Below, in pieces: positions 1,025 through 51,498 of a stretch of 64,000 nt of DNA (the first letter of the stretch is position 1; each line of letters opens with the position of its first letter). The stretch is from contig JALJCQ010000008.1 in assembly GCA_023091665.1 (NCBI GenBank), positions 248,001 through 312,000 of the forward strand, in the 5' to 3' direction. The position numbers and the translations under genes were made by a program. Under the pieces are notes generated by a model. The model was given only the letters and a program-made list of their open reading frames with translations, did not search any database and had not been told where the DNA came from. The DNA is from Pythium myriotylum. Taxonomy: Eukaryota; Oomycota; Peronosporomycetes; Pythiales; Pythiaceae.

Positions 1025-3363
1025 GCAGCACTTCCATGGGCACGAAGTCGAAGAGATCGCCTCATCCGAAGCCGCCCGCCCCGGCGATCCCAGGCGGCCA
1101 AGGATCAAGAAGTCGAGGATCGTCCGTAGCGGAGCCAGGTGGAGGGTCCCCACCGTCCGCTGCGCAAGAACAACATGCTACCGATCGTAATGGACCCCCA
1201 CGTGTTGACGTGGTTGGATCGGAGGGCGTCAGCGTTGCCCGCAACCTGACGCCCGAACTTGAAGAAGAAGGAAAGTCCGACACTTCAGAGACGGTCGACT
1301 CCATTGACGACGTCGCCGACACAATCGACCTCACTAGTGCGATCACGGAAGCGACAAACGTGCCTGACGCTCCGCAGACTCCTATCACACGAGCGGTCAA
1401 TGCTGTGCTGCCGCAAGTCGACCCGACCGGTCCCAGAGTATCGCCCGCTCGCATGCTCGAGGTGCTGTGTCAGAAGCACGACGCGCTCAAGCATCTACAA
1501 GTGACCAGGGTCGGCACAGGTACCAGTGTGCGCGATCCCGGTTTTGCGTCGATGATGAGCACGGCCGAAGTCCTCAACGGGATCATCTCCGTCTTCAACA
1601 CTGCCGGCTACGGTATCATGATCGCTGACCATGATGCGATCGCGTCGACCAGCCTCCCGAAGCTCATGACGGCAGGTCAAGCTGTCTACGACCTGTTGCT
1701 GCGCCACCAACTTCAGCGCGAGATTGGAGCCCGCGGTCGCCGCGAGCATCCAGGGGCAACTGACCGACAGGCAACTCGAAGAGATCGCTGAGGAGTTCAT
1801 CGGTCGGTCACGCAAAGAAGTCGACGACATGGAAGAGGAGCTCGACCGGAACGAGAGGACCATCAAGGGACTGGAGAGCCACTTGCAGTCGCTCGACGAT
1901 CGGGCGCGCGAAGCTGAGGCGGAGGTCGCGCAAGCGCTGGCGGTCCGAGCCGAGCAGGTGAATGCCGCCGTCGAAGCCGCCCTCAAGCGTGAGGAGAAGG
2001 TGAAGACCGAATCAATCAAGGTTGAAGACCCCAAGGACCTCAAGCAGGAGCCGATCAAGTCGGAAAAGTCTGCCGAGCCGTCCGAGGCGCCGTACAGTTT
2101 GACTGACTACCTCGCCGACATATACGATGTTTGTGTCACTCAAGGTGCCAACGTGAATGCGGCTACTCGGTTGCGTGCCTCGGCGGTGTCTGAGCTGAAG
2201 TCTTTCGATGGGCGATCGCGCGACGAGTACAAAGGAATAGCCTGGTTCAGCGCGACCCGTGCGGCGTTCCGTCGTGACCAGCTTACCGACGGTGAGTGCT
2301 GCCTCCAGTTCCCGGTCTTACTCACGGGCAAGGCGAAGTTCTTCTACCGACAGCTGCCCAAGTCGGTCCGCGCAAGCTGGAAGGCGTTGCAGAAGGCATT
2401 CGAAGAGGAGTACTGCGGGGCGCTCGTCTCGCTACAGCGGCGTTACTTTGACGCGCGCCGGAAGCCGAGTGAAGAGCCGCTCGATTACTTGTATCGACTC
2501 AACGTGCTCGCCAACGATGCCAAGATCGATCTCGATAAGGCGCATAACGAGGAGAGTCACGTGACCCACTTCTTGGACACGTGCGAAGACCAAGATCTGT
2601 CCGAACTCGTCATCGCGATGCAGCTGAACACCAGGGCGAGCCTGGTGGTCGCGTTGAAGGGGCGTATGCGCCAGAGGAACCGACTCCAACGCGAGGAGAC
2701 CGCCCTCACTCGAAATGGTCGACGTGAACAGCGTGCCGAACGAGGAGATCGAAGTGAGCGAAGTGACCGAGACCGAGAACGCAAACGAGAAGCTCGACCG
2801 ACACCGGTCAAGGCGAAGGAAGGGTCGCGCGGTCGCCCAATCGTCGTCAATGCGTTGAGTGCTCCCAACCGACCGCCGGTTAGCACCCGACTGCCCTTAC
2901 GTGGTTCGGACGACGAGTCGACAGGTGGTGACATCAGCGACAGCGACGACGACTTTGGAAGTCCGACGATGAAGAGACGGCGAATCAGTCAGCTGATCAC
3001 GGCCTGCCACGCGAAGACCTCGTCGGCGAGATCACGGCGCGGGTGATAGCCGCTCTGCAGGGAAAGGAGGTACACCACCCTCCCAAGCCGGGCAGGCGAC
3101 CGTCGAGGGAGCCTTGTACGCACTGCGGCTCTACGCGCCACGGCGATCGTGATTGCTGGAGTCGAGTCACTTGTCAGACTTGTGGCAAGAAAGGTCATCC
3201 GACTGAGTACTGCTACCATCGGTGCAAAGGGTGCGGTGCAGTCCACGACTTTGGTGCCTGCAAGCTCGGAGAGATCGCGAACGAGCTCCGCAGCTGGTTC
3301 GATCCAGTCAAGCACGCCGGCCTTCTACCACCTGCTCTCGAGAAGAAGTTGTCGGGAAACTAA
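1015..3363 (+). pseudogene. gag: Gag of element A (frameshifted)
   Basis: Capsid/nucleocapsid polyprotein of the retrotransposon. The first ATG after the LTR (1015) opens a frame that closes at 1791; coding continues in a second frame (1724-3046) and a third (to 3363), so at least two indels separate the parts. The acidic N-terminal region is followed by a coiled-coil-like charged region, a capsid-like core around 2240-2700 whose sequence is repeated in element B gag, and a basic Arg-rich stretch. The C-terminus has two CX2CX4HX4C zinc knuckles and a third CX2C...H...C cluster (about 3115-3260), the RNA-binding nucleocapsid part. The frame switch near 3043 coincides with the product resuming homology to B, so it is read as a mutation and not as recoding. 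Confidence 0.82.
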
Positions 3364-4250
3364 TACGCTCGCCAGCCGCGGGGCTGGTACGCGACAAGCG
3401 AGTTTTCGACCAAGTGCACGTGTATGCTTTCGGTGGTAAGCAAGACAGCCAGTCAGTTAATCAGCAAATATACACGTTGCACCAGTCACCTGGAGAGTTT
3501 GAGAGGAAGAAGGTGATTCAGCGTTTGGTCCTGCAACCTGGTGAGCGACGCGGCTATTGGCGTCACTTCACTCGGAAGGAACACCGGCAGACGATTATCC
3601 CTGCGACAATCAACGACACGCGAGCCCGGGTCCTCATGAACTCCGGTGCCGAAGTGTCGATACTCAGTTCTGACTTTGCGCGTAAGTTAGGACTAGAGGC
3701 CGACACCTCAGAGCGGCTTGGCTGCTCTGGTGTTGGAGGTGCTGCCTATGTGACCGAAGGCAGGGTGAAGGTGAAGCTGACCCTCGCACGCGAGCTGGTC
3801 TACGAGTTCACGTTGTGGATGGGCCACTTGGATAACATGGAGGCAATCCTCGGTACCGACTTTATGGGGCCGGCCGGTGTGAGGCTCGACCTAGTTGAAG
3901 GCGTCGCGCGCATGCCCGACGAAGTGCTCGTACGTTTTGAAGGGCGCCGGCCACTCTATAGCGACCGCATCGAGCAGGTGCGCGTCAAGGAGGAAGTGCT
4001 GCTCCTACCAGGGCGGTCACTATTCGTTCGAGTCCGACCGGTCGCTTGTAAACGAATCTGGGTTCGTTGCGACACGCGATGGATCACTACCGCTCTGCTC
4101 AACGAGCGTGGGCAGCCGGTCGAGGTGAAAGTGACCAATGTGAGCGAGGCGGCTGTGGTGAGCGAGTGCCAGACGATTGTTGCACTCTGGTTGGCGCCAG
4201 ACGCAGCTCCTCATCGCGCAGGGTACGTATCGCTCGGTTCGTGCAAATAA
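3364..4250 (+). pseudogene. Retroviral-type aspartic protease region of element A
   Basis: The frame open from 3222 to 4250 encodes a pepsin-like retrotransposon protease downstream of gag. It shows the family's active-site loop followed by the second hydrophobic signature ILGTDFM around 3850. The loop reads NSGA, not the expected D-S/T-G-A: codon 3639-3641 is AAC (Asn) where the catalytic Asp belongs. Unless this is a sequencing error, the protease is dead. The C-terminal extension has no recognised domain. Element B has lost the whole protease region. Confidence 0.75.
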
Positions 4251-4292
4251 CAAGAACGGTAGACGCTCGTCTACGAGTCTGAACCGGACGAG

Positions 4293-6554
4293 GTGCTTGA
4301 AGCACGACGCGAGAAGGAGGCGGAAGAGTTCGAGGCGAGGCTACCGCCAGCGGTCGAGCGCAGGACGTACGCGGTGCCCAAGGCGATACTTCGCCGAGTT
4401 TATGACAGCTCGTCGGGTGCTGGTGCTCTGCCTATCGCAGGCGCGCCGGTAAGTGGTCCGAAGCCCGCAAGGTTGGACAAATCCGCTGCACACTCGACGA
4501 CGGAAGAGCCGGGCGGTCGTTTGGTGTCCGCTGGCCAAGCTATGGTGGAAGGAGCGACAAGTGATCGTGTAGGTCCCGCCTCCCTCGAGACGGCGACTAA
4601 CGCGATCGAAGTCCAAGACGATGCGGTCGACAAGACCAGCCGCTACGTGCAAGCCGCGATCGCTTTTGTCGCCGCCAAGTCCGTGGCTGAGGTTGTGCTC
4701 GAGCAAGACCGTCTAGGCGAAGCCGTTTTCGTTCACGAGGGAGGTGACCTCACAGCTGTGGAGCTCGACGGGCAGATGGCGCTCGTCCCAGAGGTGGGGG
4801 CTGCCTCGGACGTTCGAAGGGAAGACATTCGCGTGATGGTCGGAGATGGTGTCACCGAGGAGATGGCCGATAGGGTTCGAGCGATCGTGTGGAAGCGACG
4901 CGATTACCTCATGGGTAAGGGAAACGCTCTACCGCTTGCAGCCAAGGGCGTGGTGTGTGACATCGACGTCGGCTCGGCGCGCCCAGTCGCCCAGCAGTGC
5001 CGCAAGGTGCCGCCCAAGTACGTCGACAAGCTGTACCAGGTGCTCAAGGACTTGATTAGCGCTGGGTTCATCTAGCCCTCGACGTCGCAGTGGGCTTCGC
5101 CGATCGTGATCGTGTTGAAGAAGAACGGCGGAGATATCAGGCTCTGTGTCGACTATCGCGTCGTCAACGGGCTTACCCAGTTGATGGTGTACCCCATGCC
5201 CGTGGTACACGATCTTCTGAAAAACCTCGGTGCTCTGAAGTGGCTCTGCTCGCTCGACATGGCGAGTGGCTTCTGGGTTGTGCGTATGACGGCACGTGCT
5301 CGCGCGATCTCAGCCTTTGTGACGCCGTTTGGCTTGTTCGAGTGGACTAGGATGCCGTTTGGCCTGAAGAATGCACCCCAGATCTACCAACGGCTTCTCG
5401 ACAATGCGCTCTACGGTTACCTCCAGCTCACACCCAAGCACCTGCGAGCGTGTGAAGCGGACATCTTCCTAGACGGTGAGCCAGTGGGACGCGAGGCGAA
5501 GCCGGTCATCGGTAGGCGGTCGTACATCGACGACATCTTGTTCGGCGGATCGACATGGGACCAGATGTGCGAGAAGCTGGAGCGGTTGATGACGGCGTGT
5601 GAAGAGTGGGGGCTGTCGATCAGTCTGCCCAAGAGCGAGTTCGGAATGCGTCAGGTGGACTACCTCGGCCACAAGGTCTCGGCTGAAGGTATTGCAGCGA
5701 AGCCCAAGAACCTAGACGACCTCCTCCAGCTCAAGTTCCCGCGAACGGTCAAGGGGATCCGGTCGTTTCTGGGGTCCCTCAACTACTACCACCGGTTTAT
5801 TGAGCACTTCGGAGTCTATGCAGCCGCTCTCGACGAGATCACGCCAGCCGACTTAGCCGAAGAGGTACAGACGCCGGGACATCTTGCAACAGCAATCCGT
5901 GCGTTCGAAGCGCTCAAGACGAAGCTTGCACAAGCTCCTTTACTTCGACACTTCGACGAAAACAAGGAACCGATTGTCATTGTGTACGCCAACGAGTGGG
6001 CGATCGCCGCTACGCTCGTCCAAGATCACGACGGGACGCTGATGCCGATCCGATACTTCAGCCGGGTACTCAAGACGCACGAGTCGAAGTTTAGCCCTGC
6101 AGAGCAAGAAGTGCTTGCGCTCCTTTATGTGCTCTCAGGCGCCGCAACGCTGCTCTCAGGCCGTGAAATGCGCGTGTTGACGAGGCACTTGACGTTGTCC
6201 TGGTTGTTCAAGGCGAAAGGCTTGCAAGGGCGACTCGAGAAGTGGGCGACCGCTCTAAGCTCGTGGACGCTCGTCATTCAGCGTACGGACAGGGGCGAAG
6301 ACGAACTGACGGTTTTGACTGCTGCTGCAATCGTACCAAGCGATCAGCTCGACGAGGTGCTACACCAGATCCGCCCACGGAAGAAGCTCGCCAGAGACGC
6401 TCGCTACCAGCTGCCGCTACCCGCACTACAGGCTAACGAGCATGGGTGGGTCCTCTCTTTCGACGGATCCTCGAAGATCTGCGGCAAGCTGTGCGGCGAT
6501 CTTGTGGCAACTACCAAGCTGGACGGTCCTGGCATTTCGACGAAGGCACCGTAA
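4293..6554 (+). pseudogene. pol: Reverse transcriptase and native RNase H of element A (stop codon)
   Basis: Ty3/gypsy RT. The fingers region is split by an in-frame TAG at 5073-5075 (element B has Ala at this place). Palm motifs follow: LCVDYR, SLDMASGFW, MPFGLKNAP and the catalytic YIDD at about 5523. Between the LKNAP motif and YIDD there are roughly 40 more residues than in ordinary Ty3/gypsy RTs, and the same insert occurs in B. The following RNase H-like part (about 5930-6230) keeps the fold's order but has YAN where the first catalytic Asp should be, so it is probably an inactive connection domain. The frame then drifts and ends at 6554. Confidence 0.85.
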
Positions 6555-7045
6555 ATGAGGCCGAATATCGAGGGCTGATCGGAGCGTTGGGGCTGGCCGA
6601 AGCCCACGGCGTCGCGGAAGTGATCGTCTTCGGGGACTCCAAGCTCGTGGTGCAACAGCTCCGCGGTGAGATCGACTGCAAGTCTCCGGCGCTTCAGGTG
6701 TTACATGCGGAAGCACTCGTCGAACTCGGCAAGCTCGCTCGAGTCCATCTGGTCCACGTGGCCCGAGCGTACAACGCGGCGGCCGATCTTATCACGGGGC
6801 TAGCGCTACAGCGTGGAGCAGGTGAGGTGGTGGTGCCTGAAAAGCACGCCGATCTTCAAGCCGTCAACCGTCTCCATGAAGTCGTCACAAGTTTCGCCCT
6901 GAACCGGCTGGTCAAATCTCGGCGGTCACGCGTTCACAACATCGGCAGGATCGGACCGAAGATCCCGGGCAGCTACCCACCGAACAAGCGACTCTCGCAG
7001 GTGACGCAGACCATGTGGTGGAGGTGGCGCTCGACCCAGTCGTGA
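6446..7045 (+). pseudogene. Second (archaeal-type) RNase H of element A
   Basis: A second RNase H domain follows the degenerate first one. The FDGS block lies near 6460 in the preceding frame; the remainder is in this frame, so one indel breaks it. Visible blocks are NEAEYRGL, GDSKLVVQQL and the late AADL block, which carry the four acidic residues of active type-1 RNase H. The homologous domain in B is unbroken (from about 11617). It would degrade RNA in the RNA:DNA hybrid during reverse transcription. A dual RNase H is known from plant Tat elements and from oomycete chromoviruses. Confidence 0.78.
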
Positions 7046-7098
7046 TCTATTGAACACGAGCCGACCGACTGCGACTAGCCCAACAAGAGGAAACGTGG

Positions 7099-8220
7099 AT
7101 GGTCAACATGAAGCTCGTTCTCTCAGGCGACGTCGGCAGGTTATCTGAAGGCCAAGTAACCGGATGTGCCAAGCTCGCCGAAGGGTACGAAGTGGTTGAC
7201 GGGATCTTGTACTTTGTCGGCACCCGAAAGGCACGCGACGGTGATGGCGATGAGCCTCGCCTGCGCTTGGTCGTTCCCACGACGCTTGTGGCTGAGGTCC
7301 TTCACCACTACCACTCCAGCTTAGGGGGTGGCCACCAGGGAATCAACCGCACGTACGAGAAGGTGAAGCGAAACCTCTACTGGCGTGGTCAGTATGCCGA
7401 TGTGCGGAGCTTCGTCGCTGCTTGTGCCGACTGTCAGTCAGGCAAGGGCGAACCTCGCCTAAACTGCTCATCCCCGGGGAACATCCTGGGGACACGGCCG
7501 TTCGAGGTATTGGGAATGGATCATGTGCCGTCCTTGCCCCGATCGTACCGAGGAAACACTGAGCTGCTCGTGTGGGTCGATCATCACACAGGGTTCTTGA
7601 TCGTGTCGGCCAACCCGTCTCGCGAAGCCCAAGTGATCGCAGAGTCTTACGAGCGATGTGTCTACAGGCGCTTCGGCGCGAGCAGGGTGATCCGTCACGA
7701 TCGAGAACCCGCCTTTATGTCGCAAGTGTTCAAGGCCTTCAACCGACTCATCGGTCAACGCAGCCGAGCTACTCTAGCCTACAGGCCGCAAGCAAACGGC
7801 ACGACCGAACGGATGGTCCAAACGGTAATGCGCGCGGTACGCCTCTACGTAGCCGACCCCGCACAGAGAGATTGGGATGACTACGCAGAGAGGTTGGTGT
7901 TTGCGCTGAACTCGTCGTTCGACCGTGTGCGGCAGGAGGTGCCCTTTTACCTCGTCCATGGCTGGGAACCACGTACGACGCTTGAGACGGGCCTACCGCT
8001 CATCGACAACGAGCAAGGACACGTGCAGGCGCGGCGCTGGCGTGTGAGCACGCAGACGGGTTACCGTCGCGCCCGAGAGGATGGGCTGGTCAAGGAGGCA
8101 GTGCAGATGAGGCGAAACCAAGCGAACGAGGATGAACGAGGTGATAGCTCAGCAATCGTGCCAGGCGCCCGTGTGTGGCTGTTCATTAATCAAGTTAAAC
8201 CAGGATATGCAAAGAAGTTG
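7099..8220 (+). pseudogene. Integrase of element A, N-terminal and core part
   Basis: DDE-type integrase. The N-terminal HHCC zinc domain is visible (HHYHSSLGGGHQ ... CADCQSG, about 7310-7440). The catalytic core has Asp in MDH (about 7518), Asp in RHDREPAF (about 7698) and Glu in TTERM (about 7807), followed by the C-terminal domain. The gene is cut at 8220 in codon KKL by the insertion of element B. Its continuation is at 18765. Apart from that insertion the catalytic triad is intact. Confidence 0.9.
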
Positions 8221-8700
8221 TGTGGTAAAGTGGCCGAGAATTTTAGGGCACTAGACCGAGTTGATAGGCAGAGACTCAGGGTAGTAGCGTAGGAGGCTCC
8301 AGACTAACCCATACTATTACTATACTCGGTATAAGCCGCCGGTATTACCGGCGGAACCGATACTGAGACGATTGTGCCATCACATATCCGATTGGCTAAA
8401 ATGGGGGCCGATTGCGTAGCCGAAAGCCGCAGTCATCACCTGGACACAAGGGGGATGATCGGCAGGATACTGGCTGAATCGGCAGAAAAGGGGCATGTAT
8501 TCAGCAGTAGTAATGGCGAACTTAGGGTAGCCGAACTTAGCGTAGGGGTACTTAGATCAGGGTTCACCCCCACAGCGACTTTCGTGGGGTGTAACGTCTG
8601 TTGGTAGCTCACTAGCACCAAGAACCCAAGGCCTGTTGGCGAGTGGTCAGCTGTCACAAGCAGTCCCTGTGCAGTGATTTTGCTGACCCACTCTACCACA
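8221..8700 (+). repeat. 5' LTR of element B, internally deleted
   Basis: 480 bases that match the two ends of the 1001-base 3' LTR (17760-18760). Everything corresponding to 18100-18620 (521 bases) is missing, with a clean junction at 8560/8561. The remaining sequence is almost identical; one visible difference is T/C at the eleventh base. This points to a recent insertion. Confidence 0.93.
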
Positions 8701-8701
8701 G

Positions 8702-8719
8702 TGGTGCGTATGCCAGGAG
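8702..8719 (+). other. Probable primer-binding site of element B
   Basis: TGG begins one base after the 5' LTR, and the downstream bases agree with the same site in element A. Confidence 0.5.
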
Positions 8720-9895
8720 CTAGTGGCTACATGGCATCGAAGTCGAAGAGACCACCAAGGTCGAAGTCACCTGTCCAAGCGGCCGCAGGTGACTTAGACT
8801 CGAAACGAGGTAGGCCGCAACCGAGTTCTGCTGGAAGGCCCCAGCTGAACACGGTGACCAAGAACATGTCGATCTCGAAGGGCCCCCACGCGTGAGCGTG
8901 GTCGAAGGACGGTCGACATCGGGTGAATCCATCACCCGCAACCTCCTCTGGTACAAGCAGCTGAAGAAGTCGACTCGTGCCAACTGGTCGCTCCTTCAAG
9001 CCGATTTCGAGCGTGAGTACTGCGGTGCGACGGTCATGGCTCACCAGCGCAACTACGAGCTGCGCCGGAAGCCGAACGAAGAGCACCTCGACTACCTGTA
9101 CCGACTCAACGTCCAAGCCATCGAAGCCGGCATCGACTATGAGGGCGCTGCGGGATCCTTCCATGTGACTCACTTCCTCGACACGTGTGAAGATGCCGAG
9201 CTTGCACGCCAGTTCGGTCTTGCCAAGCCGACAACGGAGGAGCAGCTTGGCCAAGCGTTGAAGGAGTTGCTGCGCCAGAACCAGCGGTCGAGGCGTGATG
9301 AGTCGGCCAAGTTGCGTGCGGACAAGCGCAACAGCAAGCCGAAGCCGTTCATCGCCGGTTCCAAGCAGCGGCCGATCGCAGTCAACGCGTTGGCGAAGCT
9401 GCTCGGGTCCTCGAGTCGAGCTGCCGAAGTCGACCTGTCAAGCGTGTCCGATTCGAGCTCGGATGGCAGCGAGTCGGAAGACAGCGGAGCTGAAGATGGC
9501 GAAGGTGACGATGGCGAAGATGCAGCGGAAGCTGCCGGTTTGGCGACGATGTTGGCGCCCGAGTCCGTGCAGGCGCTGACCAAGCTCGTCGCCGCCCTCC
9601 AAGGTCGTGACAGGGTGGGCAAGTCGAAGGGTGAGGTGTCAAAGCCTCAACACCCATGCTCACACTGCGGCTCGAAGCGTCACCAAGACCGCGATTGTTG
9701 GAGTCGTATCACTTGTACGGTGTGCGGTCGGCTCGGTCATTAGGCCGACTATTGCTACCACCGTTGCAAGGGGTGCGGCACTGTCCACGATCGTGGTGCT
9801 TGCCCGCTGGAGGAGCTCGCAAACCACATGAAGGCGTGGTTCGACCCGACCCGCCGAAGTCGTCGACAGCCAAGGCGAGCTGAGCGAAGCAGTCT
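8710..9895 (+). pseudogene. gag: Gag remnant of element B
   Basis: The start resembles element A gag, but the sequence jumps near 8940 from the N-terminal segment directly to the capsid core (WYKQLKKS... matches A near 2350), so about 1.1 kb is lost. The main open frame is 8892-9743. It holds the capsid-like core, an acidic Ser/Asp/Glu stretch and the first zinc knuckle (CSHCGSKRHQDRDC). A TAG at 9741-9743 cuts the second knuckle, after which the frame continues as in A to about 9850. The sequence then passes directly into the region before RT: the protease is deleted. Confidence 0.82.
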
Positions 9896-9897
9896 AC

Positions 9898-11580
9898 GTG
9901 CATGAAGGAGGCGATGTCAGCGCTGAAGACATCGACGGCCAAATGGCCATGATCCCAGAGGTCCCAGCTGGAGACGACGAGATCACGCCTGCCGACATCA
10001 AGATCGCGGCTGGCGAAGATGTCAGTGTCGAAGACGTCGAGCGCGTCCGCGAGATGGTGTGGAGGCGACGCCCGTACCTCATGGGCAAGGGCAATGCTCG
10101 GCCGTTGCCGGCCAAAGGCGTCGTCTGCGACATAGATGTCGGCGACGCCAAGCCCATCGCTCAATCGTGCCGCAAGGTGCCGCCACAGTACGTGGAGAAG
10201 CTCTACGAGCTCCTTAAGGGACTCCTCCAGGCGGGCTTCATCGCGCCATCGACATCGGCTTGGGCGTCTCCCATTGTGATCGTCGTTAAGAAGAACTGTG
10301 TTGATATCCGCCTCTATATTGATTACAGAATGGTGAACGCCCTCACTAGGCTGATGATCTACCCTATGCCTGTCGTTCATGACCCGTTGGAAAATCTCGG
10401 CTCGCTACGATGGCTTTGCTCACTAGATATGGCGTCAGGATTCTGGGTCGTGCGAATGACTGCACGGGCTCGGGCGATTTCGGCTTTCGTGACACCCTTC
10501 GGGTTGTTTGAGTGGCTAAGGATGCCGTTCGGGCTGAAAAACGCTCCCCAGATATATCAACGGTTTCTTGATAACGCGCTCTATGGTTACCTGAAGCTGG
10601 CGCCTAAGCACCTGCAAGACAAGGAAGCGGATGTGTTCTAAGATGGCAAGCCGGCCGGAGCCGAGACGCAACCGGCGATAGGTCGAAGATCGTATATTGA
10701 TGACATCTTGTTCGGCGGCGAGACTTGGGATCAGATGTGCGAGCGGCTGGAGAGACTGCTGCAGGCCTGCGAGGAGTGGGGGCTTTCGATCAGCCTCCCG
10801 AAGAGCGAGTTCGGCATGAGCCGTGTCGACTACCTAGGGCACTCGGTTTCCGCGGAAGGCATTAGAGCGAAGCCAAAGAGCCTCTCTGAGCTGCTGCAAC
10901 TCGAGTTTCCTAAGACTCTGAAGGGGATTCAGTCGTATTTGGGCTCTCTTAACTATTATCACCAGTTTATTGAGCACTTTGCGGTCTACGCGGCCGCACG
11001 CTACGAGGTTACCCAGGCAGACTTGGCCAAGGATGCGCTAGAACCCGGTCATCTCGCGTCTGCTCGGCGGGCCTTCGCATAGCTCCAGCAGAAGTTGGCG
11101 AATGCGCCGATCCTGAGGCACTTCGACGCCGAGAAGCAGCCGGTGGTCATCATTTACTCGAATCCGTGGGCTGTCGCTGCCACACTGGCGCAGGAACACG
11201 ACGGGAAGCTGATGCCGGTGAAGTTCTTCAGCAGGGTGCTGAAAGTCCACGAAGCCAAGTTCTCGCCAGCCGAGAAGGAGATTCTTGCCCTGCTCCACGT
11301 GCTGTCTGGGGCCGCGAATGTGCTGAGTGGCCGTGCTATCCAGGTGCTGACGCGATTTTCTACGTTCGGTTGGCTGTTCAAGGCGAAAGGTCTTCAAGGT
11401 CGTTTGGAGCGGTGGGCCACCGTGCTGAGTTCATGGACGCTCGAGATCGTGAAGGTCAAGAAGGACGAAGACGGCTTGAGCGGATTGGTCGCAGCCGCCA
11501 CGGGCCCTGCGGATAAGATGGACGAGATGCTTGGCGATATTCAGCCGAGGAAACGCGTCGTCGGTGAACGACATCGACTG
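9898..11580 (+). pseudogene. pol: Reverse transcriptase and native RNase H of element B
   Basis: RT homologous to that of A throughout. The in-frame TAG of A is absent here, but TAA at 10639-10641 and TAG at 11080-11082 interrupt it. The YIDDILFGG catalytic block lies near 10693. The extra segment between LKNAP and YIDD is again present and includes the TAA. The native RNase H region (about 11095-11440) reads YSN in place of the first catalytic Asp, the same loss as in A, which suggests the loss is ancestral and not random decay. Confidence 0.85.
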
Positions 11581-11589
11581 GCCGTGCCG

Positions 11590-12150
11590 ACACTAGCGAA
11601 GAATGAGGCCGCGTGGGTCGTCTCTTTCGATGGATCGGCGAAGCCGAAGCGGAATGGGGCAAGTTGCGGCGCTATCCTGTGGTCGTTGCCAACGTGGACG
11701 ATTGTCGCTGCCGAGACGGGCTTCTTTGCTGACGGGACGGTCAATGAAGCCGAGTACAGAGGTGCTATAGCTGCCATGGATCTGGCTGCACGGCATGGCG
11801 TCCAAGAAATGATCGTCTGCGGCGACTCGCGCATCGTGATCCAGCAGCTGAGAGGCGACATCGAGTGCCGTACAGCAGGGCTCCAGGTTCTACGCGCCGA
11901 GGCGTTGGCGAAGCTGAGCGTGTTCAAGTCGGCTTATCTCGTACACGTCCCTCGGGACTTCAATGAGGCCACCGACCTCATCACGGGCAAGGCGCTGCAG
12001 CGCTGTGCCGGCGGAGTCGTCGCCTCGGCCGAGCATGCCGGTATGAGAATGCTGAACCGCCTCCCTGAAGTCCTCAGGCCGAGTGAAGACGAGCCGGCCG
12101 CGGCTGTCCACGTGGTGACGCGCGGCGGTGCTGCCACGGGCGCCGACCAT
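11590..12150 (+). CDS. Second (archaeal-type) RNase H domain of element B
   Basis: This lies within the frame 11095-12669. Blocks in order are SFDGSAKPKRNGASCG, NEAEYRGAI, GDSRIVIQQL and VPRDFNEATDL, giving the expected D-E-D and late-Asp pattern of type-1 RNase H. The domain is unbroken in this copy and would be the only active RNase H of the element. After about 12150 the frame passes into a low-complexity Ser/Thr/Arg linker without recognised domain (about 12150-12660) that leads to the integrase. Confidence 0.8.
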
Positions 12151-12689
12151 GGCCAAGACTCAACCCGACAGCACGGGTGGGCCGAAGGGCAAGCGAACAA
12201 CAGCGATCGAGCTCACGGGGGTCTCCGGCGGCGCGCAGGCGAAAATAGCGGAGTCGAGAGAGCTGCGGCATCGCCACAGTCGACAGAGCTCAACGAAGAC
12301 GTTGACGGAGCGACAGGGCGCACGGGCGCACGTATGGCGAACAGCCGGGGCGTTCAAACACGCCAGCGTCGTGAAGTCTGGCGTGGGAACACGAGCGACG
12401 GGGCGTCCACAAGCGACCCAAGCCGGCGAGTCGCGTTCGATCTTCCAGCAGTCGGCAGCGAAGCTCCCGACGATTCCGTCGATCGTCCAGCAGTGTGCGA
12501 GCGTCCAGCTATCAACGAACGTCTGCCTGCTGATGCGATGGCTACAACTGAGAACGGCACCGATGGACGCGTCGCCAACGCTCGAGAGTCAGTCGAAGAT
12601 TCAGTGATGTACCCCAACGGACATAGACAGGCGCGGTGCGCATCATCAAGGAGCGACACGGCCAGATGATGACGAATCCGGTATCGCAA

Positions 12690-14452: not shown

Positions 14453-14769
14453 TACTCGGCCAGCTGCGCAGTGATCAACGCCGTCCAGGAGGCGGCGTCC
14501 GATGCTGTGCGGCTCCGAGTTGGCGTAACTAACGCCCGGCTTAGTCAGGTCGTTGCCCTGACTAGCTGACTGCGGCGAGGTTGTGGCCGGTGGGAGGCAC
14601 CGGCAAGTCATTTGGTGGACATGCATATTGTATAACGTGACGTGAAAGGATGAAGGTGACAAGTTCGACTGCCTATGGATCAAGTGAAGAAGAGAAGAAG
14701 GAATGATCATTACGATTATCTGCGAAGACGATTTCCTACGGCGTCCAAACTGCCACCAAGCTAACAGCG
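14453..14769. other. Element B spacer between pol and the antisense gene
   Basis: 317 bases lie between two convergent reading frames. No ORF, RNA gene or clear terminator was recognised. The same segment is present unchanged in B' (25829-26145). Confidence 0.5.
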
Positions 14770-17566
14770 CTAGATCTGTGCAGGAGCGGCCTTCCCTGGG
14801 CTGGTGCTCGAAGCTTCAGCAGTCGACCCGACACGGGGCGCACCAGCGGTAGTGGGAGGCAGCAGGCTCAAGGGAGCCGCCGACGGCTTGGCGGGCCCGG
14901 GCGTGGTCGGTCCTTGAGGCGCCAAACTGCTTGGAGGCGAAGGTGTGCGACCGCCGGCAGCGGTCGGCGCGTCGGCTCCCGTGCGACCCGACGGCTTCGC
15001 AGTATCAACAGCTTGAGACTTGGTCGCGGCCCCGCCGGACGTCTTCGACTTACCGCCGCTCGTAGGCGACGAAGGAGCGCTCTTCGTGCGTCGTGGCTGC
15101 TCATCTGTCGTCGAATCGTCGTCGCTCTCCTCCACGCCCTCTTTCTCTTCCTTATCAGAGGAGACCTCGAGGCGCTTCCTCTTCCCTGACGCACGGCTCG
15201 ACGCCGACGGAGACGACGGGGCAATCTTGGACGGCGAATCGCGCCAGAACTTGTGGTAGATGCGGCTGCGCACCGAGTGGGAAGGGTGAGCCTCCGGCTT
15301 GTGCAAGAAGAAAGCACGCTATGGTTCGGTTTGATCGACACGATCAGCAGCTTCAAGCACAGACTCGTTGGGCATCGGCAGCAGGTACAGACTAGTTGGG
15401 CATCGGCAGCAGGTACACAGTGCCAATCGGCGGAGCAATGAGGAAGAAGGGGTCCAACAGTAGATCGGCGTCGATGTCAGGATTGTCGGCAATGAACTTC
15501 GCGAGACACCGACAATGGTCCTTGACTTGGGTCTTCGCGGTCGAATGACGCTGCTTGCGCTCCTCGCACCACTGAAGATCGACCGACGACGGCACAACCA
15601 AGCAGTGCATCCGCTCGTAAAAGGTGCGAATCACCAGCCTGTAAAAGGCCATGGTCTCGGTGTAGAGCCCTACGAAGCGGTCGTCGGCATAGTTGAAGGT
15701 GATAGACTTGGGGATCATCTTCAAGAACTTCTTCCAGCGAACCGCGTCGCTCCAAAGGGTGATCTCAGCAGCATCGACGTTGAGGCGAGCATTGGCTTCT
15801 GTGAGGAACTTGGCATCTTGGTTGTAGTTTGGGGCCATGGCTTCGCAAGGGAACAAGCCCAACCGCCACGCGAGTCGCTCGATCTGATCAGCCGACAACG
15901 TCGAGGGGGGCCCACTCTCCGGCCATCCAGCTGTCCAGACCGGATAAGACTCACGCATCGAGTTCAAGGTCGACTGAGAGACGTAGTTGGCGCCTCGCTC
16001 GGCCGACGGGCCCGCGGGAGTGGTTGAAGACTTGCGGCCCTGATTCTTCGGCACCGGTGATCCACGCGAGTCGGCGAGATCTACGACGTCCTGGGGAGTC
16101 GGATCTGGTGAAGGTTGGCTCTGCGGCTGCGCCGCGGCGGCGGCCCCCTCTTGGTTCTTCTTCGCCTTCTTCTTCGCAGGTGTTTTCGCACCTGCTGGCG
16201 GCGCACGGCCAGAGACAGCGGCGTCCGGGCTCGGGCTGCGGGCGGAGTTGCCGCCGCGCGCCTGCGACGACGGAGCCGCGCTGGTCGACGAGTCGCCTGT
16301 CGAGCTCAGCTGCCCGGCGATAGTGCCACCGAAGCCGCCACCAAAGAGGGAACCCTGCTCGAACAGTGACTCGAGCTCGCCGCCGCCAAGATCTGTTAAG
16401 AACTGCTCAATGTCGTCGTCTGGCCGAAGATTCTCAATCTTCTCCATAAGACGAGTGCAATCGTTGACAATCTTCTGCCGTATCATGAATGTGTCGGTGG
16501 GCACGGTGGGGTCGGCCTTCGATATCTCGGCGGCCATCGTGGTCAGGGCATCAGATCCGCTGATCCGAAAGCCGTCCGGTGTGAGGCGTGACACCAGGTG
16601 ATCGAAGACGGGCGTCAAGAACCCCAGGTTGACACGAGGAGCCGAAGGGTTAGCTTCGCCGCGAAGCTTGTTGAGGACAGCGAGAGCCGTCGACGTTGCG
16701 CCTGCCTCGCGAAAACCAGTGAGCAAGACAGGGCCGATCAGCTTCTCATACTTGAGCAAGGCGGCTCGCGCTTGGGCCAAGATCGCCTGTAGGATCGCGA
16801 TGGTCACGGCATCGGCCGTCATCCGCCGACGAATTGCCCATACCGTGCCGAAGCCGCGGTAGTTCGCAATCTCCTGGTTCACCTCGCGAAGCGAGCCCAG
16901 ACTGCCGAGGCGCCTATAGGCCTTGTACTTCTGCTCGTGATCTGCTTGCTCCGCCGTCGCAGCTGCGGCCACCTTCTCAGCCGCATCAAGTCGGTCGCGT
17001 AGTGAATCGCGCTCCTGGGTTATAGTCTTCAGCGCGAAGGCGTCGCGCTCGCGCTCACCACGATAGAGCTCGAGCCGACGACGAAGGTCAGCCACCTCGT
17101 CAGAAGCAGGTGTCGACGATGGAGCATTCGCAGGCGGAGGACTAGCAAGTTGTCGACCGGCCTCGGCCTGGGCACCGGAGTCAGCCAGGGAACGGAGGCG
17201 GGCAGCGCGACGGACGGCAGCGATGTGTAGACGCACCTTTGACCGTTCGAGTTCTTCGAGACGCTGAGCCTTGGCCCGCAGGTCGACGAGCTCGACGTCC
17301 GCACTCTTCACTCGCGACTTCAACGAGGCGAGCTCGGCAGCAAGCGTGCTGCTCACAGATTCGAGGAAGCTTGAGCAGGCGTCGGAAGACTGAAGAGCGG
17401 TCGAGGCGCGTTCCAACAGCGCAGTCAACCGACGCAGTTGCTCAACGGACAGCGGGACTGTCAGGTCAGAAATAGCCTCGAACAGATCACCCGCGACACC
17501 TGCCAGCTTGGAGCGCGCGAGTTTGACCAAGCGTGCCTCACTCATCTGCAAGAACGGTGTGAGCAA
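14770..17566 (-). pseudogene. Antisense gene of element B (aORF)
   Basis: A long minus-strand frame opposite to gag-pol, lying between the chromodomain and the 3' LTR. It starts at ATG 17566, runs 724 codons to 15392, and after a roughly 28-base tandem duplication near 15367-15420 continues in another frame to 14770. The product is predicted as an N-terminal alpha-helical, coiled-coil region of about 280 residues, a conserved globular stretch (about 300-400), a Ser/Pro/Lys-rich low-complexity region with basic NLS-like clusters, and a C-terminal conserved block ending in DADLLLDPFF and HPSHSVRSRIYHKFW. Element A has a minus-strand gene in the same place with recognisably similar N-terminal and C-terminal blocks. 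No known family was recognised. The role is unknown; the conserved position suggests an element-encoded accessory protein. Confidence 0.75.
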
Positions 17567-17744
17567 GCGAACACCTCCATGATGACCGGCGAAGAAGCGA
17601 TGCGTACCGTCAAGGGAAAACCGGAGGAGAAGACGAAGTGAAGGGGCCGAAAGCTGTGCGGCTGCTCCAACGGCGTGATCGGCTGATGTGTGGTGACTCG
17701 GCCGAGAGGAGTTCTCCCATCACCCAAGGTCTGCGACCAGGCCG

Positions 17745-17759
17745 ATGGGAGACGGGCGC
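17745..17759 (+). other. Candidate polypurine tract of element B
   Basis: A purine-rich stretch (GATGGGAGACGGG) ends directly before the 3' LTR at 17760, where plus-strand synthesis would be primed. It is short and interrupted by pyrimidines, so support is positional. Confidence 0.4.
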
Positions 17760-18760
17760 TGTGGTAAAGCGGCCGAGAATTTTAGGGCACTAGACCGAGT
17801 TGATAGGCAGAGACTCAGGGTAGTAGCGTAGGAGGCTCCAGACTAACCCATACTATTACTATACTCGGTATAAGCCGCCGGTATTACCGGCGGAACCGAT
17901 ACTGAGACGATTGTGCCATCACATATCCGATTGGCTAAAATGGGGGCCGATTGCGTAGCCGAAAGCCGCAGTCATCACCTGGACACAAGGGGGATGATCG
18001 GCAGGATACTGGCTGAATCGGCAGAAAAGGGGCATGTATTCAGCAGTAGTAATGGCGAACTTAGGGTAGCCGAACTTAGCGTAGGGGTACTTAGATCAGC
18101 TGCTGAGACCAAGGTAATAGACTTCCACTTTCACCGCCAAGCCCGCAAGCAAGCCGCGTCGTCTTGGCAAGGAACGTCGCATCAAGGCTCGCCGTCACCA
18201 ACAGGAGGTGACGTTAAAGAAGACACCGGCTGAACCTGGCTATCGCTGTCAAGGGAAGCCGACGACTCTCAAGCGGCCGGCTTGAAGCGCTGGAGCAAGA
18301 CTGCCAGCGGCGTCGGCTGCATCAAGGACAAGGACGCTCGTGTGCGCCGGTGGGATTGTCCCCCCGCCACGCCAAGGCAGGTTACGGTCTCTAGTGCTGA
18401 GCACTAGCAGATCTCACGCCCCAAGGAAGCCGCAGCCGTCTCGTCGGCTGCGCACAAGTGCTCCGAGCCCCTGCGTGTTGAGCAGGTGTGTTCCTCGGCC
18501 TGGTACGACCCCCGGCCCAACTCTGCGAGACGGTCTCCTCGCGGAGCTCAGCTGGCCGACCCCAGAGGCTTCACGACCATCTGGCTTCCCCTCCCCCGAC
18601 TTCGGTGTCAGAGCGCCCACGGTTCACCCCCACAGCGACTTTCGTGGGGTGTAACGTCTGTTGGTAGCTCACTAGCACCAAGAACCCAAGGCCTGTTGGC
18701 GAGTGGTCAGCTGTCACAAGCAGTCCCTGTGCAGTGATTTTGCTGACCCACTCTACCACA
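17760..18760 (+). repeat. 3' LTR of element B, full length
   Basis: 1001 bases, TGTGGTAAAGC...CTCTACCACA. The outer parts match the 5' LTR at 8221-8700. The central 521 bases exist only here. It contains a conserved inverted repeat CGTCACC/GGTGACG (18193-18213) and is related to the solo LTR at 29225-30287. Confidence 0.93.
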
Positions 18761-20559: not shown

Positions 20560-23500
20560 TCAGATCACGGCGGGGCTTGGACACTTCCGCGGTGGAGACG
20601 CTGCCGGCGGCGTCGACGCAGCGGCGGAGCGCGCTCTCTTCGTCGAAGTACTCCCGCCACCGCCCTCCTCATCGTCTTTGCCTTCGTCGGCTCGAGTGGC
20701 TGAGCGCTTGCGCTGGCCGGTCACCCGCACAGAGGGCGCGCCGCCACTGGCCGGAACGGCTGAGCCTTTGGCGTTCGCTGCAGTAGCACGAAAGCCGGGA
20801 GAGAACTTCAAGCGCAGGCGCTCAAGACAAACGTGACTCGGGTGAGCTGACAAGTCGAAGTCGTCCTCACGTGTATTACCCGGTCGATGAAAGTACAGTC
20901 GCTCTGGCTGGTCACGCTGCACACGCAGCAGACAATCGCCGAGCGTCTCGTCTTGCTTGGGAACGACCGGGACGACGCCGACGACTGGAGACAATGGGAT
21001 GAAGGGATCAAGTACGAAGTCAGCATCGACGACCTTGGAGTCGAGCAGTCGGCGGATCATGGAGAAGATCCGGGAGCGGGCCTCGGTCATGTGCGTGTTG
21101 CGCGACCTCCTCTGTTTTGAGAACTCAGAACGTCGCTCACAGCGAGCGATCTGAGCGAGCTCTTCGGCGGTCAGCTTCTTGCCACTTGGGATCTTGGGCC
21201 GAACCTCCGGCTTGATCATGACGAAGTTGGCCCGCTCGTACATGCACTGTGCACGCGTTCGCGGAAACTGCCTGACCGCCTTGTAGAACTCTGCAAAGCC
21301 AGGGTTGTCCGGATGTAAAGGGAGCGGCTCCGGAAGACGCCGAAGGATATTCCAAGGCTCTGTAGCGTAGACGACGTCCACTTCCTCAATCGACACCCAG
21401 CGACCGCCGAAACGCCGAATGAGAGCCGGGTATGCGTTCGGCTGCGGTGTGTTCACCTCGTGATGGAACAAACCGCGGTGAACAACAACTTGGACGCGCT
21501 CTTCGCTCGATCGGCATCGTGAGGCGGGTACTTCGGCCATGCTTTTCCGGAGCGACTCTTCAATCGCTTCTTTTGCAAAGCGACCGCCCGATCACGCATT
21601 TGCTTGACAACGCGTTGTCGACGACCGGCTCCTTTCCCGACGGCTGGCGCCTCTGTGTTGAGCGGCGAGCACCTGACGACGAAGCAGTAGAAGACCGCCT
21701 CCTCCTCGCACGACGAAGCGGCGCAGGCGAGTCCGGCTCAGCAGTGAGGTCGATGGTCGAGGCTGGCGCGTCGTCACTACCAGACGTGCGGTCGCTTCCG
21801 TCAGCGCCGTCGTCGTCTTCGTCTCCCGACCGGGGCACCTCGCGCATGTCTTCTAGCTCTTCATCATCTTCGCCGCCTCAGGCCGCGTCATCCGGGGAAC
21901 CGTCATCGTCGTCGACTGCGCCGTCGTCTGAGTCGTCGTCTTCGCTTCGGCGACTGCTCGTGGGGCGTCTAAAGGCCAAACGGTCGAGCATCCGCTCGTA
22001 GAGTTCCTCGAGCGGCATCTCCAGCTCGGCGTTGCGTGCCCTGCGGAAATCCGGATGAGCAAACTGTGTTCGGTTCACGAGGTCCTTGATTTCTTGTGCT
22101 GAAGGAAGTGAAGGCGGCCCGAATACTCCAGAACGCTGGTCGTCGTGAGTCGTGTCGCCCTCGCCTTTGGCCTCCTCTTCACTTTCTTCAGAGCGACGCG
22201 CCGCAGCCAAGCGCTCGACTGCTTCAGTGGCTGGAACATACGAGATGCCGAGTGCCTGCATGTCTTCCAGCACAAACTGCAGAACTTGAGCGAGAGGATC
22301 GAGCTCGCTGCCCAGAGGCGGCGCCCCCATGGAGCCCGACGCGCTGCTCTTCCTCGAGGACCTCGCGGCCGACACGCCCGAGGCCTTCGCCCACCACCAC
22401 GACCTGCTCTCGCGCCCGCTCTCGCTTGCGGCCGTGCGGCAGGCCGAGCCCTGGCGCTTCGAGGATGACAGCGAGCCTCTCTCAACGCTGCTCGCATCGC
22501 CGCCGCCGGCTTCCACGCCGGAACTGCCGCTCGCGCTCGAAAGCGACGCGCTCGAGCAGGCCGCCGCGCAGCTGCAGATCTCGCCGCACGCGTTTTTCCC
22601 GCCGAGCGACGACGAGACCACGTCCGAGGAGAGACCGACGAGCGCGGCGCTCGTCGTGGTGAGCGCTCCAACAGCAGCATTGCCAGCATTGCCAGCGAAC
22701 GGCACGCTCAAGGCCAAGCGCAAAAAGCCCAATCGCTCGCCCAATTACAACCCGAACCGCGCGCGCAATGCGCGGCGCCACGAGCTCATTTACTTGCGCG
22801 ACAAAGTGGCCGAGATGGAGCAGGAGCTGCGGCGAGCTTGTGCCAATCGGAGCAAGGGACGCCGCCGAGCGAAAGAAGGATCGGAGGGTGCGTCCCTGTC
22901 GTGAGTAGCCGAGCAATGTCGGGCCCAGCAGCGCTTTATATTGACGACACGCTATCTCGGAGGCGTTCAAGTGGCGCGCGAATGCCTCGACCAGTATCTT
23001 CAGTTGAAGCTCGCGCGCCCTGATTTCGTCGATCGTCCCCAGCTCGGTATATGCCTTAAAGAGATCGGCTGCACCTGAAGCAGCATACTCGGCGAGCGTC
23101 GCTTGCAAGCCACGCGCTGTTTCTTGCGCCTGATCACGCTCCTGTTTTAAAAGGAGCGCCTCTTTCTCGAGCCCCTCAGCACGTTCTTGCAGTGCGTTTA
23201 TCCGAGCCATGCTGCCGTCGTCGGAGAGAGGCGGTGGAGGCGCCGGGCGCTGCAGCGAGTCGGTTAGCTTCTTCAGCCGCGCGTTTTCAAGACCGATTAC
23301 GCACACGCTTTCCTTCAAGCCGTCGCGCTCGGCCTGGACCATCGCGAGCGAGTTCTGCAGACGAAACTCTACGGGAGAAGGCTGACCGGCACGTCGCGCT
23401 GCAGCGGCGCCCGCTGCGGACGGAGCAAGAGACTCGGTTACGACAGTAGGGGCGCCTTGCGAAGACTTATCGCCCGCGGCAGAGCTAAGCGTCTGGAGCG

Positions 23501-23705
23501 GCTTGTCGTCCTTGCCTGCGCTCGAGATCGCCGCACGTAGGCGTTGCAAGATCATCTGAACGAGGAGCCCATGGCGAACGAGAAAGCCGGGGTGTGGCGT
23601 CTTCTTGCCGAGAAAGAGATCGCCGACCAGGTTCGCCTCGTGGCGCATGTCCTTACGGAAGCGCGCGCGGTCGTTCCATGGATGCTCGTCGTCGGAGTCG
23701 CTCAT
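20560..23705 (-). pseudogene. Antisense gene of element A (aORF), broken by captured sequence
   Basis: Minus-strand gene in the same position as the B aORF, starting at ATG 23705, 144 bases from the 3' LTR. The N-terminal part (to about 22905) is acidic and then coiled-coil-like, ending in a block (YKALLGPTLLGYSRQ) similar to YEKLIGPVLLTGFRE of the B product. A foreign + strand fragment follows (22329-22904). The frame then continues with a block resembling B (LDPLAQVLQFVLEDM against LTPVFDHLVSRL) through acidic, Ser-rich sequence to frames 21878-22744, 21560-21847 and 20560-21540. The C-terminal block (RSRIFSMIRRLL, VDADFVLDPF, HPSHVCLERLRLKF) matches the C-terminus of the B protein. Several frame changes make it a pseudogene. 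Function unknown. Confidence 0.7.
22329..22904 (+). pseudogene. Captured fragment of a bZIP/M96-like regulatory gene
   Basis: A + strand frame of 191 codons beginning at ATG 22329, placed inside the antisense gene of element A. It has an acidic N-terminus (MEPDALLFLEDLAADTPE), a Ser/Pro/Ala-rich middle, then a basic stretch (KAKRKKPNRSPNYNPNRARNA) running into a heptad-like helix (LIYLRDKVAEMEQEL). That basic-region-plus-helix pattern resembles oomycete bZIP or mating-specific M96-like proteins. The helix is short and the frame stops soon after, so the fragment lacks the C-terminal part of such proteins. Codon usage is strikingly G+C rich and cleaner than that of the surrounding element. It may be a retro-captured host gene piece. 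I am sure that it is foreign to the aORF, less sure of the family. Confidence 0.6.
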
Positions 23706-23848: not shown

Positions 23849-25484
23849 TATGGTGGAGCGGCCCAATCCAGACGGGACGTGGCACACGCAGCTGCGGAGG
23901 ATGGGCCGACCCAGATTGAAGGGAGGCACCCAAGGCATTTGATGCAAGGTGATCAGGACTTCGGGTAACAATGGGCAACATCAAGGAGTCGGCATGAGTA
24001 TCGTCCGAAGCGGTGAACCGACCGACCGCCCAAGGGAGGGCAGGCGATCGGCGGGAAGTGTGTTGAACCAACCCAACGGCCAGGTGATCCGGCAGACGCC
24101 TTCAACCAGACGCACGGCCGCCGAGTGTCAAAGGAACACGAGAAGGGGCCCCGAAGCGCCTAGGCGATCGACCGGCTCGAACTACTGTGAGGCGATCGTC
24201 GAGATGCCCACCCGATCGGCCAAGCGATTCCCCGACCGCCAGGTCGACGTACGGATCGCCTAACATATCGACGGATCGGCTGAGACATCTACCGATCGGC
24301 TGATGATTAGACGGCACCCTGGTGGTTGCGCATACACTTGTAGGGTTGTAGGTTTAGGGGCGTGTACCCAGTGTGTGAATCAGATAGCGTAGGACTCTAG
24401 TAAGGCAGGAAAACTCCTAAGCAATAGACTCTGCATTTCGCGACCAAGTACACAAGTCCCCAAGACGTACAAGGGAGCGCAGGGCTCATGTAACGGGGTA
24501 CAAGGTTACACAAGTAGGTTAGGTTGTGTAGGTACATAACGTATGTGGTCCACTTAGGGGAAAAGTTACCCTAAGTAGTGACTCTCTTTTATTAGATTCA
24601 GTAGGTGATATCCCTGGGTATTAGATACCAGGGATATCAGGTATAGGGGGGATTATTCCCCAGGGGGATAATCCGAATACAGGCAGTTCGCCTTTTGCCA
24701 AGTCCTTGGCGCTCGTCGACAGGGGTCGACTCGGAGCGGCTGCTCACGCTTCCTCAAGCGCAGGTACTGTGTGCGGTCGTGGACCGTTACACTTGGTAGC
24801 ACTTGTCGTCAATCCGACGCCGACATCGTTATGTCCGAAGCTTCCGACTTCGTGATGGCGTCAAGCCATCCGACGCTGTCGCGTCAAGACCATCCGTACC
24901 TGGATGAGGCCCAGTGGGGCTATCTCCAGAAGATGGAGGCCATCAATGACCGTGCAAGTGTCATCGAGCTGCTCCGACGCGGCTCTGGCGAAGTCCTCGC
25001 CCATGTCGCGTGTTTTCGCGACTACGAGACAGCTCTCGAGAAGTATCTTCTCGACGTCGTGGCGTCCCGCGTATCTGCAACTCAGGCTGCCCAGCCAGCT
25101 CAGGTGCCGCCGACAGTCAGGTATGTGCCGTCGCCGGCACCTCCGGAACGTCCTAAGGCCGTGAAGGTTACGGTGTCCCCGTATTCGGGTGAAGAAAGCG
25201 ACAATCTTGCCTTCTGGCAACGCGAGATCGAGCTCGCCACAGCAGCCGGCTGCATCCGTGATGAACGGCAGAAGATCGCCTTTGCGATCTCGAACATGAC
25301 GGGCCGGGCGAAGATCTGGGCCCTCACGTGCGAGACGTCGCATCCCGGATGTTTTTCCGACTGGGCAACGCTTGCCAAGGCGATGTTCCAACCGCCAAAT
25401 GTGGCGCATCGCCAGCGAGCTGCGTTTCTCGCTTGTAAACGCTTGTAAACGACCGCGCACCGCCGCCACAACCGCGTTACCACA
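23849..25484 (+). repeat. 3' LTR of element A, interrupted by element C fragment
   Basis: The LTR starts at about 23849 (TATGGTGGAGCGG, compare TGTGGTAAAGCGG in B). Bases 24013-24488 match 1-488. At 24489 an element C LTR begins. LTR A resumes only as two short pieces at 25447-25484, which match 588-613 and 993-1005 and end in TTACCACA. Material corresponding to 489-587 and 614-992 is gone, so deletions accompanied the insertion. A 10-base direct duplication (GCTTGTAAAC) sits at the junction, 25431-25450. Confidence 0.8.
24489..25436 (+). mobile_element. Truncated element C copy (C'): LTR plus gag 5' part
   Basis: The LTR at 24489-24791 (TGTAACGGGG...ACCGTTACA) is the same family as those at 40950-41252 and 47827-48134. 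A primer-binding site beginning TTGGTAGCA follows, then a gag start at 24831 whose protein is nearly identical to the full element C gag for about 200 residues. Homology stops abruptly at 25436, and the frame closes at 25448. No 3' LTR is present. Confidence 0.9.
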
Positions 25485-48593: not shown

Positions 48594-48815
48594 TTACAGT
48601 AGCGATGGGGAGTACGCACTGATGCACACCAGAAAAATATTAAGACCTCGTGTTGTATCCAACATGTGGTCGTAATACAGTGTGTGATCCTGGCATCCGT
48701 CTTCTTTTAAGAAGACGGCAATTCGCATGGCACGAGGAGTGTAAAAAAAAACTTGGCAAGTCGCTAATCGATCAAGATAGCTTAGATTGAACCGCACAAA
48801 GCTAATCTAGGCAAT

Positions 48816-49799: not shown

Positions 49800-49836
49800 G
49801 GTTTGTTGAGTGGAGTGTTGCTTGCGGTGCACAAGG

Positions 49837-51461: not shown

Positions 51462-51498
51462 CCTTGTGCACCGCAAGCAACACTCCACTCAACAAACC

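Follow-up and report, generated by a model that had tools for sequence, protein, structure and literature searches.

Two Ty3/gypsy elements, A and B, in a 64,000-nucleotide stretch of the Pythium myriotylum genome (C8:248001-312000, hereafter the window) raise the question of why a retrotransposon should carry a long gene on the strand opposite to its own pol. The initial annotation described such a minus-strand gene between the chromodomain and the 3' LTR of both elements, and the open reading frames are present as it stated. Whether this frame encodes a protein that matters to the element, how widely it occurs and what its product might do were addressed by searching the whole 58.7 Mb assembly (55 contigs).

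By their domain layout, compared with that described for oomycete Chronos elements in the sections of PMC5348765 available to us, A and B are classed as nested Chronos-type Ty3/gypsy elements, with A sitting inside the pol of the outer element B and both pol regions on the plus strand. Element A (8221-18760, plus strand) is bounded by an LTR pair and has GTTG on both flanks; its 5' LTR (8221..8700, plus; TGTGGT...ACCACA) is ~520 bp shorter than its 3' LTR (17760..18760, plus). Since GTTG stands on both flanks and the LTRs are alike to 99.7% in one stretch (340 bp) and 99.3% in another (145 bp; ~485 bp compared in all), the insertion of A is recent. A ~520-bp block separates these otherwise 99.3-99.7% alike LTRs, and a related stretch at 29225-29940 aligns across it, so that the 5' LTR of A has likely lost the block. 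Within A, a gag-like ORF (8892..9743, plus), named by its position and by zinc-knuckle residues recognised by eye and without a gag family match in Pfam, is followed by pol pieces in broken frames (9898..12669, plus), which comprise the RT (9898-11082, recognised through its similarity to the RT of B) and the Ty3/gypsy RNase H together with an added RNase H (11095-12669). The integrase (12971-14029, plus) was assigned by Pfam, as was the chromodomain (14105-14452, plus), where PF00385 scores 25.7 bits against a cut-off of 25.1; the same domain is found in families F and G. Pfam also recognised PF17917, PF17921 and PF00665 in A, and PF00078, PF17917 and PF17921 in B, where the rve match lies slightly below its cut-off, while the second RNase H (PF13456) was detected in both elements (E-value 1.3e-11 in A and 4.7e-14 in B). 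The outer element B (1724..8292, plus), which A interrupts, contains a gag-like ORF, named by position, protease, RT, RNase H, second RNase H and integrase. Its 3' LTR (24013..24488, plus) was matched to window positions 1-496, and because the 5' LTR of B is cut by the window edge, the real start of the 3' LTR likely lies near 23849 and not at 24013.

The remainder of the window includes a second piece of A (25485-28444), inverted and 99% identical to 12154-15113, which includes the integrase together with the antisense gene's 3' end, and an inverted repeat (48572-52726; arms of 2034 bp, 100% complementary, 87 bp between them) whose mirrored ORFs contain internal repeats of 24 bp. Two likely host genes lie beside this repeat-rich part, one an ORF with a pair of phosphagen-kinase units (60351-62702) and the other coding for a TMEM117-like protein with an ion-channel domain (56537-59452). 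The kind of phosphagen-kinase gene, like the type of element, fits an oomycete host.

The antisense gene of A runs on the minus strand from the ATG at 17545 to the stop at 14770 (14770..17545). In the window copy its frame is broken into two minus-strand ORFs, 17566-15392 (724 aa) and 15306-14770 (178 aa), and comparison with seven other A copies showed that a 28-bp tandem duplication at approximately 15362..15417 (minus) splits what is a single gene; alignment places the part of the conserved C-terminal block that precedes the break at 15395..15985 (minus). The antisense gene of B (20560..23705, minus) is in pieces, with an N-terminal piece at 23705-22482, a middle piece in part of 22744-21878 and a C-terminal piece at 21540-20560, and a second B copy (L050) shows the same order of pieces. 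Thus, both elements do carry the gene, as had been proposed, and neither window copy is intact; long open copies are present elsewhere in the genome, and in two A-family copies the frame is uninterrupted over 936 and 942 codons. The start codon, which the initial annotation placed 140-200 bases from the 3' LTR, lies at a distance of 215 bp in A (measured from the ATG) and of ~145 bp in B (if the LTR edge is the terminal motif near 23849). The products of A and B share the order of blocks that had been noticed, namely a helical, putatively coiled-coil N half, LxGPxLL, a low-complexity middle, DAD..LDPF and HPSH. The NLS-like component of that description did not hold up: such motifs occur in 10 of the 11 families that carry the gene, yet shuffled sequences often reach the same, and they exceed chance only marginally in A (14/300 shuffles) and not in most families.

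To follow the gene through the genome, we used the antisense proteins of A, B, F, H and E as queries and also read stretches downstream of more distant integrases. The genome proved to hold homologous antisense genes in 11 element families (A-K), the longest open frame reaching 1119 codons; a homologous frame, the presence of which in other members the initial annotation had left to be checked, is therefore shared by many of them. Matches obtained with the A, B, F and H queries (142 pieces) were grouped into 76 loci, 63 of which have a listed integrase within 4 kb. The antisense locus lies on the opposite strand to and 3' of the integrase in 62 of these 63, at a median gap of ~980 bp, and the lone exception is a 306-bp inverted piece beside an antisense match of the same element. 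The E-family query added six places, all opposite to their integrase when compared by eye. The remaining 13 of the 76 loci have no integrase listed within 4 kb; antisense-protein relatives of this kind at C1:145508-145921 and C23:1205326-1205595 may be domesticated copies or remnants.

Viewed from the integrases, of which 115 out of 948 candidates were scored, the gene or pieces of it were detected near at least 68 of 109 loci, not every family having served as query. An antisense match was absent near the other 41 in these searches, among them B itself, where the nested A displaces it; these 41 comprise some families without the gene and others without a query of their own family. No intact antisense gene was found in the downstream stretches L055, L056 and L057, where L055 contains short remnants and L057 one. 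Three related families of chromodomain elements (L059, L063 and L064, following the integrases at C22:821419, C1:133536 and C14:547813) lack an antisense gene within the 4.0-4.4 kb examined downstream of the integrase, and profiles of the antisense block gave nothing below an E-value of 7 on either strand. In these three the antisense slot is filled by a long sense-strand ORF, which in L063 contains a Myb-like domain (PF13921, E-value 4.5e-5, above the Pfam cut-off); the match in a second family falls below that cut-off, and the third slot ORF has no domain at E≤0.01. The families with the sense ORF form a single group with support 100 in a chromodomain tree of 12 sequences (supports 62-100). 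In the same related group, nine integrases lie within 175 kb at C22:647697-822474, several at ~21.4-kb spacing and some inverted, which is a large repeated array.

We then estimated dN/dS in the antisense frame by the Nei-Gojobori method (NG86), with 95% intervals from a codon bootstrap and with gapped and stop codons dropped, for families A, B, C, D, F, G, H and J (E, I and K being outside this comparison); a second round was limited to aligned stretches of at least 200 bp. In six of the eight families tested (A, B, D, F, G and J), dN/dS was 0.17-0.40 with 95% intervals below 1. The window copy of A gave 0.23 (0.17-0.30) against L005, with 51, 31 and 111 changes at the first, second and third antisense codon positions; L007 gave 0.17 (0.12-0.24), two closer copies gave 0.21 and 0.23, and one pair with 14 changes gave 0.64 (0.22-3.8), not distinguishable from 1. 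Family B showed 0.17 (0.11-0.25) in the C-terminal part and 0.57 (0.25-1.63), not distinguishable from 1, in the N-terminal part. Values were 0.23, 0.28 and 0.20 for three pairs of exon 2 and 0.29 (0.10-0.97) for exon 1 in D, 0.18 (0.11-0.26) in F, 0.40 (0.23-0.71) in G and 0.20 (0.14-0.28) in J. Family H, with six changes, was uninformative (0.32, 0-1.62), and six pairs of C with few changes gave 0.31-0.59 without intervals. As a yardstick, the integrase-chromodomain region of the A family gave 0.11 in two pairs. The antisense gene thus evolves under purifying selection on its protein in six families, which bears out the initial suggestion that selection has kept it.

Families C and D provided a second line of evidence. 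In all four D copies, an N-terminal exon (MSASDDG...) and a long second frame are parted by 69-70 nt of the form GTATGT/GTACGT...GTAG, and one copy has a 1-nt deletion inside this intron that leaves the spliced frame untouched. In C, a 58-nt GTGAGT...CTGACC...TTAG sequence (L049) lies between the start codon and the conserved frame and links the two, with GTGAGT in 5/5 copies and the terminal AG in 4/5. When the nine C and D copies are read unspliced, all nine meet a stop within ~35 codons of the splice site, and the GT-AG introns coincide exactly with the change of antisense frame. An intron on the sense strand is lost in the RNA intermediate and is for that reason used in retrotransposition reporters (described in PMC12786077), while an antisense intron should survive retrotransposition because reverse transcription uses RNA of the opposite strand as its template. 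Introns that join the antisense frame therefore argue for a spliced antisense mRNA, and those of C and D, with splicing predicted from sequence, are in our reading the strongest in-silico sign of expression as an antisense mRNA. Together with the spread over 11 families and the three related families without the gene in the 4.0-4.4 kb downstream, they go beyond what the initial annotation contained. A pattern search around the start in seven families found no such introns in other families and returned extra sites in A and D. Two candidates were set aside: an intron in family I, suspected from two frames, had no consensus site, and the frame breaks of family G are not the same in its two copies and, on inspection by eye, resemble independent indels. 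Three C copies (L049, L070 and L071) differ from two others (L072 and L073) by dissimilar upstream sequence before a start codon and intron common to all five, a pattern that would fit an exchange of the end holding the presumed promoter.

Between families, the protein itself shows homology at 11-44% amino-acid identity. A profile of the C-terminal blocks of five families, cut by eye, detected family E (E-value 4e-10), and with E included it detected family K (5e-8), while a profile of families G, H, J and K detected two F copies (4e-4 and 1e-3). Family F is the weakest link, as the six-family profile by itself reached an E-value of 0.035 there, no better than some chance ORFs. Compared directly, the profile of A, B, C, D, I and E matched that of G, H, J and K with probability 92.8 and an E-value of 3.9e-7; the best of 30 column-shuffled controls reached 0.4, the reversed alignment 0.2, and reversed ORFs searched with three profiles 0.28 at best. 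The conserved core consists of PW.....P.P.TF.P.DP, an aromatic stretch ending in ER.H, DAD..LDP.F...P and then EP.R, which is followed by HP in families A-E and I. Consistently with vertical inheritance together with pol, identity of the antisense block to that of A falls with integrase identity over eight families (Spearman 0.99).

Searches for relatives of known function gave none. With one protein per family (11, those of B and D partial) and three window pieces, Pfam returned no PF04195, bZIP, env or gag match at E≤1; there were only weak coiled-coil-type and other matches under the curated cut-offs, including PF05557, a weak coiled-coil label, in A and D. No relative from outside this genome appeared in a large protein set (one search scored 7999 candidates sharing most words) or in IMG/VR viral contigs, and none among PDB sequences, where the best hit was a coiled-coil at an E-value of 0.59. 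The earlier statement that no described family exists for this protein thus holds within the libraries searched, in which, on sequence comparison, it constitutes a new and nameless superfamily. AlphaFold models of two window sequences (pLDDT 34.5 and 42.6) are too poor for a claim about the fold; one of them, at this low confidence, contains long helices in the N half. In E, J and K the heptad signal, from which coiled-coil stretches are predicted, was stronger than in any of 60 shuffles, while it exceeded 56-59 of the 60 in A, C, F, G, H and I and 51 in B and D; it peaks in the N-terminal half in A, C, D, E, H, J and K and elsewhere in B, F, G and I (with the B and D proteins partial).

Could a conserved frame of this kind arise without a regulatory protein? 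One way, against which the initial annotation had asked for a check, is that it is a by-product of codon constraint on a sense gene. Control frames were taken from the 11 long comparisons with an interval below 1 (four in A, the B C-terminal part, three in D exon 2, F, G and J) and gave dN/dS of 0.85-2.96, the codons compared including 5-44 stops. For D exon 1, 97 codons offer too little length for such a control (1-4 stops, 0.43-4.6). One pol-strand frame did give a low dN/dS (0.19-0.39) in these 11 comparisons; however, its third codon positions coincide with those of the gene frame and 12-32 stops interrupt the compared codons, and among the ORFs listed for the A copies no sense ORF of at least 250 codons lies within the gene. 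Codon constraint, which would stand only if the sense frame were decoded with stop read-through, is thus refuted, and we give it a negligible chance. It is also improbable, to a lesser degree, that the antisense transcript acts as RNA, as dsRNA, a source of siRNA or by transcriptional interference, with an incidental frame. Sense and antisense small RNAs are reported along P. infestans Gypsy elements (in the portion of PMC3522703 consulted), and an RNA function is discussed for plant antisense ORFs (likewise in PMC7264820), but the protein is under selection in six families, its frame is joined by introns and the families remain homologous at the amino-acid level (11-44% identity), all of which speaks for a translated product. 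An RNA role may exist in addition to the protein.

Less improbable than an RNA role, although still unlikely, is that the elements have picked up a host gene and carry it as a passenger whose function is of host type, which would fit the spliceosomal-type introns, as in host genes, and the 13 of 76 loci without a listed integrase within 4 kb, C1:145508 and C23:1205326 included. Several of these 13, however, are close matches to the A protein, at high identity, and another is element B itself, the integrase of which is displaced by the nested A; moreover, no homolog was found outside the genome in the sets searched, and the gene has diverged together with the integrase over eight families, where a passenger should decay. 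The alternative we take most seriously, while considering it unlikely as well, is a structural, particle- or membrane-related protein of env-like or gag-like type. The long N-half helices of the low-confidence model and the heptad signal that exceeds every shuffle in E, J and K would suit such a role; against it, the Pfam search gave no env or gag match at E≤1, and a separate antisense mRNA is an odd route to a particle component.

We therefore return to a regulatory protein as the preferred explanation. As a whole, it is moderately probable that an antisense gene in 11 Chronos families, with a protein under purifying selection in six, is expressed from its own antisense mRNA, in some families spliced, from a promoter near the 3' LTR, and encodes a trans-acting nuclear accessory protein. 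The promoter of the antisense gene would likely lie near the 3' LTR. Initiator-like words stand upstream of the antisense start in A, B, D and E and one distal word in C; none was found upstream in F or I, the upstream regions having been inspected unevenly and without a shuffle control. A trans-acting nuclear accessory protein is the most likely function by analogy with HBZ and with Grande gene23, and the Myb-like ORF that occupies this slot in related elements is a hint in this direction; the nuclear site and regulatory role are inferred on these grounds. In the mechanism that we propose, the integrated DNA copy would give rise to sense genomic RNA and to antisense mRNA, which would keep its introns, as the reverse-transcribed RNA is the opposite strand. 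The translated coiled-coil protein would oligomerise, and its conserved C-terminal block might act in the nucleus on element DNA, on element RNA or on the pre-integration complex, so that transcription or integration of the element would be tuned and the element would control its own activity. Broader still is the idea that a retrotransposon lineage independently evolved a retrovirus-like regulation, with an antisense gene whose introns are kept through every retrotransposition and a new superfamily feeding back from integrated DNA copies only, to which we would assign slightly less than an even chance.

Plant Tat/Retand elements and deltaretroviruses are already known to carry antisense accessory genes. 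That Chronos has a conserved one with introns suggests a further gain of such genes by elements with an additional RNase H, this time for an unrelated protein. For RNA-seq of water moulds, where Chronos can be abundant, the introns offer a clean and directly testable mark of antisense mRNA; 1555 copies are counted for P. infestans in PMC5348765, in the part of that paper available to us. As members of a nameless superfamily, these genes would likely be annotated as hypothetical proteins or masked as repeats.

Among known systems, the Chronos elements of oomycetes (Ustyantsev et al. 2017, PMC5348765) share dual RNase H, integrase and chromodomain with A, and dual RNase H and integrase with B; the word 'antisense' is absent from the main text of that paper, and neither its structure legend nor the other sections consulted describe any ORF other than ORF1 and ORF2. 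Searches of the open PMC literature, as distinct from subscription journals, turned up no account of such a gene in Chronos or in any other LTR element of oomycetes. Within the stramenopiles, Sola1-1 of Ectocarpus likewise carries an opposite-strand accessory gene, although it is a DNA transposon with ParB/methyltransferase domains, and the Ectocarpus chromodomain Gypsy elements are reported as unrelated to Chronos (both in the excerpts consulted of PMC12477816). In plant Retand elements, according to the sections of PMC11963269 available to us, 97% of recent clusters have an antisense gene in this same position, after pol and before the 3' LTR, and PF05557, below its cut-off in A and D, is named for some of their ORFs. 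Unlike the Retand TRP28 proteins, those described here, from all 11 families, do not match PF04195 at E≤1 and have a different conserved block; they belong to chromodomain elements and have introns in two families, in agreement with the convergence with plant elements envisaged at the outset. Maize Grande gene23 is likewise an antisense accessory gene near the 3' LTR, with a nuclear product and a measured promoter of its own where ours is inferred (PMC7264820, as far as consulted). A model for the mechanism is provided by HBZ of HTLV-1 and the APH proteins of HTLV-2/3/4, which are antisense, 3' LTR-driven and spliced, mostly nuclear, and lower sense transcription (PMC10186651, in the portion consulted). 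They belong to primate retroviruses, and HBZ differs by its bZIP domain, for which no match at E≤1 was obtained here; we have borrowed from them the outline of a regulatory circuit for a Chronos gene that is known from its sequence.
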